Shown here: piece after piece, positions 18,525 to 21,683 of the stretch | Layout of the letters: each line of letters begins with the position of its first letter | Numbering within the stretch: the stretch's first letter is position 1 | DNA from: Gemmatimonadales bacterium | GTDB taxonomy: Bacteria; Gemmatimonadota; Gemmatimonadetes; Gemmatimonadales; GWC2-71-9 | Direction: 5' to 3' | NCBI GenBank assembly: GCA_036279355.1 | Contig: DASUJH010000058.1 | Span: 1-37,653, forward strand | DNA length: 37,653 nt | Position numbers and translations under genes: made by a program | The notes under the pieces: model-generated | Told to the model about the DNA's origin: nothing | The model's input: the letters and a program-made list of their open reading frames with translations, nothing else | Database searches by the model: none

Positions 18525-19353
18525 GCGTGGAGCGCCCCGCACGGCGAGCCCCGACGCGGCGAGCCCGGACCCGCCGCCTGAGCTCGCGCTTGTCGCGCCC
18601 GGTCGGCCGCAGGAAAAAGCGGCCGCGCGCGGGGTCTTGAGCCCGAGCAGGCACGGGACCTTGGGTCAACCGCTCGACTGCCGTCACCAGCAGTCGAATG
18701 CCGGCCGGCGCAAGTTGCTCCCTCCAGTAGCGCGTGAGATATCGCATCGGATCCCCCGGCGGCATGAGGTCGAGCGGTAGCCGCTCCTGCAGGATGATGT
18801 CGCCTTGGTCGAGCCGCTCGTTCACCCAGTGCACGGTGAGCCCCACCTCGGGCGTGCCCTCGTACAGCTCCCAGAATGCGGGCGCCGAACCGCGGTATTC
18901 GGGCGCGTGGCCGAAGTGCAGGTTGATGGAACCGAGCCGGGGGAGCCTGAACAACGACGGGAGCAGCCGGGGCGTGGCTACGACGACGCCCAGATCCGGT
19001 GCAAGGGCGCGCACCCGCTCGAGCGTGCTCGCGGAATGGAAATCCGCGACGTGCTCGTACTCCACTCCCGGGCAACGCTGCGCGGCATATTCCGCCAGAC
19101 GCGCGGCGGGAGGCTCCCCGCGCAATGCCCGAAGGCCCCGCGCCGCCGCGCCGCGCAGCACGGCGCTCGCGCCGCCATAGCGCCACATACGGAGCGCCTT
19201 GCGGAGAGGTGGGCGCTTGCGAAGCGCCATCGGACCCGTGAGCGCCGCGACGCGACTCACGCCGGGCAGCCGGGCGATCTCGGCGGCCGCATCGAGCCCG
19301 ATGCGGTTCACGGTAAGCACCAGCACGCAGAACGGGGCGGTCGCCCCGGTCAT
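18508..19353 (-). CDS. Formyltransferase (formyl_trans_N family), likely sugar or amine N-formyltransferase
   Basis: A 281-residue protein with the N10-formyl-tetrahydrofolate-dependent transferase fold. GSINLHFGHAPEYRGSAP carries the catalytic Asn and His, and NERLDQGDIILQE the catalytic Asp, matching the Met-tRNA formyltransferase family. The C-terminal tRNA-binding domain of Fmt is not recognisable, and the last 40 residues are merely basic. As the last gene of an operon with a flippase and glycosyltransferase, a role in formylating an amino sugar or other amine of a surface glycan is more likely than initiator-tRNA formylation. The ATG at 19353 overlaps the flippase stop (ATGA). The frame stays open far upstream, but that part is a shadow of the flippase gene. 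Confidence 0.82.
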   Translation of the reverse strand: MTGATAPFCVLVLTVNRIGLDAAAEIARLPGVSRVAALTGPMALRKRPPLRKALRMWRYGGASAVLRGAAARGLRALRGEPPAARLAEYAAQRCPGVEYEHVADFHSASTLERVRALAPDLGVVVATPRLLPSLFRLPRLGSINLHFGHAPEYRGSAPAFWELYEGTPEVGLTVHWVNERLDQGDIILQERLPLDLMPPGDPMRYLTRYWREQLAPAGIRLLVTAVERLTQGPVPARAQDPARGRFFLRPTGRDKRELRRRVRARRVGARRAGRSTLTPSG

Positions 19354-20915
19354 ACGACGTCCCCTGCACCGGCGCGCGGCGCCGCGCGCGGCGCGGGCGC
19401 ATCGCGCAGCATCGCACCGCGTGCCATCCCACCCCGAATCATCGCCCGCCGCGCCGCCGCCGCGAGCCGCGGCACGAGCGGAACCAGCAGCACCAGATAC
19501 GCGGCGGCTGCGAGCGCGGTCGAGCTCACATCGGCGCCGGGCCAGACCCGCCGAACGGCGAGCACGCTCACCGCGCACCAGGCGAGCGGCAGCACCGCCC
19601 GGCAGGCCGTGGCACGCGCCGCCGCTGCGCCGGGCGATCCTTCGGCGGACTTGAGATTCACCACGAGCACAGCGCCGCCATACGCCGTCTGGCTGAGGAG
19701 CGCACCGGCCGCCACTGCCTCGAGACCCAGCCCGAGCCGGAGCGCGGTGAGCGACAGCACCAGGTTGAGCGCGGTGCCTGCTCCGGCGAACACCGGCAGA
19801 ACCCGCTGCCGCTCCGCCGCGACGAGGCCGACCGCGCCGAGGCTCGCGAGGCCTGCCGCGACGCCGCTGAAGATGAACAGCTCGCCCGCGGGGGCGGCGG
19901 GCGCGTAGCGCGGTGCCAGCAGCGCAAGTGCGGGGCGGAGCGCGAGCGCGCCGAGGCCCAGGATCGGCGGGAAGAGCTGAACGAAGGGAAGAATCGATCG
20001 CTCGACGTGCTCGCGCACCGCGCGCGCCGCGCCGGCCGTTTCCATCCGATGATAGACCTCGGGAAAGACCACCGTGCGAATCACCCAGCCCACGGCGGCC
20101 GCGAGCCCCGCCACCGCAACCGCGAATGCGTAGTATCCCAGCATGACCCGGCCGCCGAGTGTCACCACGGTCAGCCGATCCACGCTGGAGAGCAAGCGTG
20201 CCAGTCCGAGCGCAATGGCGAACGGAACCCCGACGCTGAGCAGCCTCCGCACGCTCGCTACGTCGAACGCGGGTCTGAGCGGTACCATGCCGGGCAGGAG
20301 GCCGAGGGAGAGGACATTGCCGATAACCAACCCGACCAGCGCGCCGTCGAGCCCCCACCGCACCGCCAACCCCAACGTGCAGACGAGTTGCAGCACAGCA
20401 TGCGCGAACTCGAGGCCCGCGTAGCGGCGCAGATTGGCCTGCACTCTGAGCGCGATGAGCCCGTACACGTAGAGCTGCTCGGCGAGCACGGCGGCCGCGA
20501 ACGCGCGGAGCTCGAACGCGCGCTCGGGCTCTGTGACGGCAAACGACGCCGCGAGCGCCACCGCCGCGATCGCGCCGAACACCACCAGCACGTAGCCCAG
20601 CGCCGCGCGCGCGGGACCGTCTCGAGCGGCCCCCGTCTCGAAGCGGCCGCGCGCCCGCGTCAACTCGAGCTCGAGGCCGCGGTGGATGCCGAGCGCCGCG
20701 AAGCCGGCGTAGCCGAGGCCAAGGCGAATGAGGGCCCAACCGCCGAATGCGGCCGGCCCGAGCAGGGTGGCGAGCACGAGGCCGCGGATCGCAAGTACGC
20801 CGGCGATCGCCGCCCGGGCCGCGCCGTAAAGTGCGATGCGGCGGAACGTGCTCCGCGGCGGTGCGATGCCACGCGGGGGACCGGCCTGCTGCGTCGGGGC
20901 GGCCGCCGCGCTCAT
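19350..20915 (-). CDS. Wzx-like oligosaccharide flippase (MOP superfamily)
   Basis: A 521-residue polytopic membrane protein with about 12-14 hydrophobic segments in the pattern of polysaccharide biosynthesis flippases. The N-terminal FRRIALYGAARAAIAGVLAIRGLVLATLLGP helix pair and the central LARLLSSVDRLTVVTLGG and AAVGWVIRTVVFPEVYHRM segments fit the family. It would turn over a lipid-linked oligosaccharide to the periplasmic side. No Wzy polymerase or initiating phosphoglycosyl transferase is in the window. The ATG at 20915 is the last of three ATGs in a tandem 14-base repeat (see the repeat entry). The stop overlaps the start of the formyltransferase gene. Confidence 0.85.
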   Translation of the reverse strand: MSAAAAPTQQAGPPRGIAPPRSTFRRIALYGAARAAIAGVLAIRGLVLATLLGPAAFGGWALIRLGLGYAGFAALGIHRGLELELTRARGRFETGAARDGPARAALGYVLVVFGAIAAVALAASFAVTEPERAFELRAFAAAVLAEQLYVYGLIALRVQANLRRYAGLEFAHAVLQLVCTLGLAVRWGLDGALVGLVIGNVLSLGLLPGMVPLRPAFDVASVRRLLSVGVPFAIALGLARLLSSVDRLTVVTLGGRVMLGYYAFAVAVAGLAAAVGWVIRTVVFPEVYHRMETAGAARAVREHVERSILPFVQLFPPILGLGALALRPALALLAPRYAPAAPAGELFIFSGVAAGLASLGAVGLVAAERQRVLPVFAGAGTALNLVLSLTALRLGLGLEAVAAGALLSQTAYGGAVLVVNLKSAEGSPGAAAARATACRAVLPLAWCAVSVLAVRRVWPGADVSSTALAAAAYLVLLVPLVPRLAAAARRAMIRGGMARGAMLRDAPAPRAAPRAGAGDVV

Positions 20916-20951
20916 GCGTCGCCGCTCATGCGTCGCCGCTCATGCGTCGCC
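20910..20951 (-). repeat. Three 14-bp tandem repeats forming a stop-start relay
   Basis: The unit GCTCATGCGTCGCC (plus strand) occurs three times in perfect tandem at 20910-20923, 20924-20937 and 20938-20951. On the coding minus strand each copy contains ATGA. The GNAT gene stops at 20940-20942, overlapping an ATG at 20943 that reads MSGDA then stops at 20926. This overlaps an ATG at 20929 that reads MSGDA then stops at 20912, overlapping the flippase ATG at 20915. Two five-codon mini-ORFs thus bridge the two genes. No Shine-Dalgarno sequence is in the unit, so re-initiation is the probable mode. Confidence 0.9.
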
Positions 20952-21683
20952 GCTCGCGCATCTCGCCTCATCGGGAAGGGCCGTTGCCTGCACGACCGGT
21001 CCAGCAAGCGTGAGCTCGAGTGGCCGCTCCCACGCACGGTACCGCATGCTCCGGAGCCAGAGCAGCTTGAGGGACCGCAACTCGCCCAGGATGCGCGGCG
21101 CGCGCCCGCTGGATTTCTCCGCGGTGCGAAAGGAAGCCGCGTTGTGCACCGCGATCACGCGCCAGGCAAGCCGGTATCCCTGGTCGCGCGCCCACTGAAG
21201 TCGCGCCCGCGCGAGTGCCGTGCCGATCCCTCGGCACCGCTCGGCAGGCGGCGTGTAGAGCCCCCAGAGATAGGCGGCATCGCTCGGGAGGGGGAGCGGA
21301 AACGTTTCGATGTCGCGCTCCATCCGCTCCGAGCACCAGGCGTAACCCACCGGCGCGGCGCCGCGCCAGGCGACGAGCAAGGTGCGGCCGCGCGCGCTCG
21401 CCATCGCCATGATCGTCCGCGTCCGCAGGCTCGCGAGCGGCGCCATCCGGGCCCAGTCGGGCCCGGAGAACTGCCTGATCTCGATGCCGGCCGGGGGCGG
21501 TGCATCGGTGGACCAGGCAAGCTCCTGCTCCAGCACGAGCGAGCGACTCCAGCGCACGAGGCGATAGGCAGTCCGCTGCGCCAGCTCCTCGCAAACGCCT
21601 CCAAATCGCTCCCGCCGCCACGCATTTGCCGCGTCGCCGGGAAAGGTGCGCGCGTCGTGCAGATACTTGCGGATGCGGTTCAT
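20940..21683 (-). CDS. GNAT-family acetyltransferase
   Basis: A 247-residue protein whose middle part has the GNAT fold: VAWRGAAPVGYAWCSERMERD, the beta-4 strand AYLWGLYTPPAERCRGIGTALARA with the acetyl-CoA pyrophosphate loop (RCRGIGTAL, a Q/RxxGxG/A variant), and WRVIAVHNAASFRTAEK near the end. The first 80 residues form an extension starting MNRIRKYLHDA and the last 50 a basic region. The acceptor is unknown. In this operon it may acylate an amino sugar or amino acid unit of a surface glycan. The ATG at 21683 overlaps the upstream stop (ATGA), and its own stop leads into the 14-bp relay before the flippase gene. Confidence 0.8.
   Translation of the reverse strand: MNRIRKYLHDARTFPGDAANAWRRERFGGVCEELAQRTAYRLVRWSRSLVLEQELAWSTDAPPPAGIEIRQFSGPDWARMAPLASLRTRTIMAMASARGRTLLVAWRGAAPVGYAWCSERMERDIETFPLPLPSDAAYLWGLYTPPAERCRGIGTALARARLQWARDQGYRLAWRVIAVHNAASFRTAEKSSGRAPRILGELRSLKLLWLRSMRYRAWERPLELTLAGPVVQATALPDEARCASGDA

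Follow-up and report, generated by a model that had tools for sequence, protein, structure and literature searches.

The junction between a GNAT acetyltransferase gene and a flippase-like gene carries a perfect tandem array of a 14-bp unit, in which the GNAT stop, two identical five-codon ORFs and the flippase start are joined in series by three ATGA overlaps. The array is a real sequence feature of the DNA, correctly observed in an earlier sequence-only reading, whose interpretation we find partly supported. Our verdict is that it represents a real, uncommon and small variant of the relays formed by mycobacterial interspersed repetitive units (MIRUs). We further consider it probable (about 0.62) that an ordinary 4-base junction, enlarged by two units added through slippage, acts as a chain of termination-reinitiation steps leading from GNAT to flippase.

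The 14-bp array and its chain of overlaps

The stretch analysed (37,653 nt, hereafter the window) is contig C58 of a draft genome of 3.25 Mb in 60 contigs. Its minus strand holds a run of tightly packed genes that Pfam assigns to glycosyltransferase, AMP-binding, BKACE, FemAB-like, pre-ATP-grasp, GNAT (two members), flippase-like and formyltransferase-like families, with ATGA or ATGATG overlaps (-4 or -1 spacing) at several of the other junctions. The upstream gene considered here is the second of the two GNATs, and its own start shares an ATGA overlap with the preceding gene (21680-21683, minus strand). The named loci related to the window flippase are Gemmatimonadota records, which places the genome in that phylum; in the genus g51 (L031-L033), the flippase is preceded by two paralogous GNAT genes about 1.8 kb apart. 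The features of the junction are as follows.

20940..21683, minus strand: upstream gene, GNAT acetyltransferase of 247 aa ending ...CASGDA* (Pfam PF00583, E 5.7e-12), with its TGA stop at 20942-20940
20909..20955, minus strand: tandem array of the 14-bp unit AGCGGCGACGCATG, 3.36 perfect copies (TRF and whole-genome pattern search)
20940..20943, minus strand: first ATGA, GNAT stop and start of mini-ORF 1
20926..20943, minus strand: mini-ORF 1, MSGDA*, ATG at 20943
20926..20929, minus strand: second ATGA, stop of mini-ORF 1 and start of mini-ORF 2
20912..20929, minus strand: mini-ORF 2, MSGDA*, ATG at 20929
20912..20915, minus strand: third ATGA, stop of mini-ORF 2 and flippase start (ATG at 20915)
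19350..20915, minus strand: downstream gene, flippase-like polysaccharide biosynthesis membrane protein of 521 aa (Pfam PF13440, Polysacc_synt_3, E 5.5e-07)

Read on the minus strand, the locus bears out the earlier description of three perfect 14-bp copies, each with its ATGA, as well as the proposed order of GNAT stop, MSGDA*, MSGDA* and flippase start; TRF reports a period of 14, 3.4 copies and 100% match, with a score (94) that is the highest of the 55 TRF rows in the window. The GNAT stop and the flippase start are 24 nt apart (+24 spacing). The 18-mer AGCGGCGACGCATGAGCG occurs three times genome-wide, each time at this junction. First-order Markov simulations of the window (300 runs) produced no perfect array with at least 3 copies and a period of 10-60, and the array is the sole perfect one with at least 3 copies and a period of at least 10 in 741,529 bp of its own genome (41 stretches including the window). 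Enlarging the sample to 1.11 Mb added three further perfect arrays, all with periods (12 or 15) that are multiples of three.

Whether a unit can form such a chain is set by its length, because a mini-ORF that starts in one copy finds its stop in the following copy only if the unit length plus 1 is divisible by 3. Chain-closing units are therefore 2 mod 3 (14, 17 or 11 bp), and units of 1 mod 3 would leave the chain open. The earlier argument that 14, not being a multiple of three, forces a stop and restart at each copy is right for 14 bp but fails as a rule, since 2 mod 3 is needed. A unit of this class that carries NTGA alters neither flanking protein, whatever the copy number; it follows from the sequence that a change in copy number, which in phase-variable repeats switches a protein on or off through its frame, has no such effect here. 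Over 1.47 Mb of the same genome, six of the eight distinct repeat-linked NTGA sites have units of 2 mod 3 (binomial p 0.02), a small count that takes in weak repeats with an identity of 0.82-0.93.

Ancestral overlaps and a second relay

A search of 288 genomes of the order gave flippase matches (E<=1e-8) in 7, including the genome of the window, and GNAT matches (E<=1e-12) in 8. All five readable orthologous junctions in relatives within the order have a direct 4-base NTGA overlap and no repeat (ATGA in G057 and G098, GTGA in G139 and G142, TTGA in G090), and the window flippase is 42-44% identical to the proteins of five relatives in the order, the N-termini aligning at M1. A flippase-alignment scan of contigs returned seven loci, five of them on contigs already covered and two (L039 and L040) left out of the junction count because no co-directed GNAT precedes the flippase; a genome with a 29% flippase match (G161) also stands outside it. 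The GNAT query found no match on plasmids and none in the scan of genome contigs. Since every readable orthologous junction is a direct overlap, the ancestral -4 overlap gained two 14-bp units in the lineage of this genome, in agreement with the earlier suggestion that a direct stop-start overlap had been turned into a chain.

When 741,529 bp of the same genome were scanned for repeats that link NTGA sites in series between ORFs of 100 codons or more, two sites emerged, the window array and the following one.

C7:19527-19564 of the same genome (L106 2028-2065): relay between an mcsA-like and an mcsB-like gene, 17-bp unit, two mini-ORFs

The mini-ORFs of this second relay are two identical six-codon VRRVAE* frames (GTG AGG CGG GTG GCC GAG TGA), unrelated in sequence to the 14-bp unit. 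The upstream product carries the Pfam UVR motif and the downstream product belongs to Pfam ATP-gua_Ptrans (ATP:guanido phosphotransferase); the names mcsA and mcsB are our reading of these families and of the gene order. Among 30 loci, 28 were readable (its own and 27 relatives, with L158 and L175 unreadable). The relatives have a plain -4 junction in 24 of 27 cases, with one each at -8, -11 and +2, and the +30 spacing occurs only in this genome. Two unrelated -4 junctions have thus become two-mini-ORF relays in one genome, which looks like a recurring way for junctions to take insertions while coupling is kept. A search of 799,962 bp from five relatives and 900,000 bp from two alphaproteobacterial replicons found no repeat-linked multi-hop relay.

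From overlap to chain, and the alternatives

Overlaps of -4 couple translation by termination-reinitiation (PMC6728339; for this and the other papers cited, our statements refer to the accessible part of the text). In three native E. coli gene pairs, a spacing of +14 nt lowers reinitiation by 40-80% and one of +38 nt nearly abolishes it, and the final 15 nt of the upstream gene are enough for reinitiation (PMC10666635). The coupling data used here were obtained in E. coli and Haloferax, and the host is a member of the Gemmatimonadota. On the reading we favour, an ancestral NTGA coupling junction gained two 14-bp units, most likely via replication slippage, each added copy supplying a five-codon ORF that shares its stop with the start after it and leaving both proteins unaltered. 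A ribosome finishing GNAT would then arrive at the flippase after three 4-base termination-reinitiation steps in a row rather than one, and these -4 hops would probably preserve coupling better than an open gap of 24 nt, with some loss at each hop. The duplication was most likely tolerated because each copy re-creates the termination-reinitiation signal. Beyond coupling at this junction, we infer that ribosomes would use the chain, that each hop would cost some output and that copy number could change; the earlier proposal that the chain could reduce and tune flippase output is possible, as is tuning by copy number.

The initiation signals at the flippase point in the same direction. The sequence-only reading would have given way to an independent flippase start downstream of the repeat, and we looked for one; no in-frame ATG, GTG or TTG lies between the ATG at 20915 and codon 47, which already belongs to the conserved core, nor was an in-frame start found upstream of that ATG, so an independent start was rejected. 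Shine-Dalgarno (SD) pairing at the three ATGs (-2.3 to -2.6 kcal/mol) is weaker than at 74-81% of -4 starts, the flippase ATG standing at -2.3 against a median of -5.1 kcal/mol for 331 such starts. An RNA hairpin in the array was likewise rejected, as the array is weakly structured, with 199 of 200 shuffles folding equally well or better. With weak structure and weak SD pairing at the ATGs, strong independent initiation of the flippase is not apparent, and together with the lack of an alternative start before codon 47 these features point to dependence on coupling.

A neutral product of slippage, inconsequential for function, would be identical in sequence; the mini-ORFs would go unused and the flippase would be reached by 30S or 70S scanning over the 24 nt or by weak independent initiation. 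We regard this explanation as unlikely, while granting it a real share of the probability. Arrays of the slippage type are frequent in this genome, which has nine perfect ones (at least 3 copies, period of at least 7) in 741 kb, and the effects of spacing vary by species and study, some reporting coupling over longer distances (PMC12548453). Chance alone, however, would have had to place two independent arrays, both of the chain-closing length class, on ancestral -4 overlaps, and weak SD pairing at the flippase ATG speaks against independent initiation; the distances reported in PMC10666635 likewise favour a relay over scanning of the 24 nt.

The remaining explanations appear far less probable. 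With three copies the flippase lies in the GNAT reading frame, a point not raised in the earlier reading, separated from it by one UGA and eight sense codons (GCG GCG ACG CAT GAG CGG CGA CGC), and readthrough of the UGA could in principle yield a fusion across these open codons; this is very improbable, as adding two units of 2 mod 3 always brings the two frames back together and the relatives make separate proteins from genes with a -4 overlap. An assembly or sequencing artefact with a true copy number of one might be suspected in a draft of 60 contigs, but ordinary reads are longer than the 47-bp array, and the same genome contains the independent mcsA-mcsB relay, which makes an error just as improbable. 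Least probable of all is a binding array for a protein on DNA or RNA that falls on the junction by chance. Direct TAACTGA repeats near starts have been proposed as binding sites elsewhere (PMC4679880), whereas the 18-mer here is unique to its locus and the mcsA-mcsB relay is unrelated in sequence.

Known systems and one-hop relays

MIRUs, whose units are about 50-100 bp long, are the nearest precedent (for example at senX3-regX3). They are junction repeats with a small ORF coupled at -4 to the neighbouring gene, inserted at start codons in a way that probably limits the impact of insertion (PMC12548453). The likeness is one of overlap anatomy only, since MIRUs are much longer, dispersed and thought to be mobile, while the unit described here measures 14 bp, is confined to one locus in its genome and derives from the junction's own sequence; it is not a MIRU. 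Each link corresponds to a standard -4 overlap of the ATGA/TGATG type (PMC6728339, PMC10666635), with stop and start sharing 4 nt throughout, but an ordinary pair has one link and this junction has three in succession with five-codon ORFs between them. The mg1 and mg2 minigenes of axe-txe are also tiny cis-acting ORFs that affect translation of the next cistron, with stop-to-start distance playing a part (PMC8708949); as described in the accessible text, they differ in being two-codon leader ORFs with their own SD, with neither a tandem repeat nor an NTGA link upstream. The intergenic TAACTGA repeats of Beggiatoaceae are likewise short and direct and lie at starts, in some cases overlapping the upstream stop, but they consist of one dispersed 7-bp sequence with stops in all frames, and the accessible part of that report describes no start-stop chain (PMC4679880). 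In the literature searched, largely outside subscription journals, we found no description of short tandem repeats as serial stop-start relays.

It is tempting to view relays as a general class of junction, in which NTGA-bearing units of 2 mod 3 can be inserted at coupled junctions as a frame-neutral rheostat of output and later decay to one-mini-ORF relays. We consider this wider proposal doubtful. If true, each copy would add one hop with both proteins untouched and copy number variable, and the decayed one-mini-ORF relays (+7, +10, +13) would be kept only by their NTGA ends. Insertions at junctions should be costly, as a gap of about 20 nt is reported to nearly abolish reinitiation, and a 2 mod 3 unit that brings an NTGA with it would be spared this cost. 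The length rule would then predict which insertions survive at operon junctions, and it fits the senX3-regX3 MIRU units of 77 and 53 bp (PMC4213456), both of which are 2 mod 3. A simple, testable rule and the independent mcsA-mcsB case raise the interest of the array.

One-hop relays were surveyed with gene models trained on positional GC, which recover the operon and reach 92.4% coverage. Among 912 close same-strand pairs (1,471,220 bp, 81 stretches, 1,374 modelled genes), 29 junctions are relays and 323 lie at -4. In frame-permissive pairs we asked whether the first candidate start, 1-22 nt past the stop, is followed by A, a test devised after the feature had been seen. This was so in 22 of 41 pairs with an NTGA upstream stop against 9 of 72 otherwise (Fisher p 5e-6), the latter being a composition control made up of CTGA (4/38), TAA (1/8) and TAG (4/26), and all 22 chains are intact. 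The difference persists without the four sites known before the test was designed (18/37 against 9/72, p 1e-4); in the non-closing frame, a small control, the counts are 2/7 and 11/58 (p 0.62). NTGA stops are also rarer in the non-closing frame than at gene ends with no close co-directed follower (21/113 against 169/547, p 0.009; the same genome, 81 stretches), which is what harmful reinitiation at a dead-end NTGA would predict.

Outside this genome, the association of NTGA with NTGA is not significant (pooled 13/34 against 18/63, p 0.37; other Gemmatimonadota 5/11 and 7/29, Azospirillum 6/18 and 5/18, Methylorubrum 2/5 and 6/16). The idea that one-hop relays are commoner here is unsupported, with 22 in 734 close pairs against 13 in 538 from the other bacteria sampled (p 0.60), so that the two long arrays may be all that sets this genome apart. 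An origin of the one-hop relays as recent tandem duplications is unsupported overall as well, since repeat identity at p = d+4 is not clearly above permutation (4 observed, 2.35 expected, 51 of 500 permutations as high).

Orthologue comparisons at two junctions indicate that relay and direct overlap interchange at the same site. The purC-psd junction stands at +7 here, an ambiguous call because of an in-frame GTG at -8; 22 of 29 relatives are at -4, three at -1, one at 0 and one at +43, and two have no near start. At ubiA-ubiX (30 loci including its own), the +7 spacing is shared with two loci of another genus, in G090 (L229) and G096 (L230), whose mini-ORF sequences are different. Five others, including sister genomes, were called at -4 by script, one each lies at -1, +3, +11 and +42, and 18 were not comparable (11 gave no ubiX, 4 had no near start, and in 3 the ubiA motif was missing).

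Several further junctions and repeats were seen along the way. A two-hop candidate at L215 3135 (plus strand) has visibly diverged 14/14-bp units and, like the array in the window, a spacing of +24. After an Asp23-family gene (L112 8623-8640, minus strand), a one-hop relay reads VSRNA* before a gene starting VSRTA; it is a 14-bp duplication with one mismatch, and no relative of the family matched. In the genus g25 (L195, L202, L207), tandem repeats resembling CGCGGAAC part purC from psd, where other genera have a -4 overlap. Finally, 8-bp arrays with GACCGCC-like units recur in the genome of the window, some of them at gene ends (L053 971-1034 and 3454-3486, L056 1729-1759, L071 13256-13288, L077 2866-2896 and L124 14094-14122).
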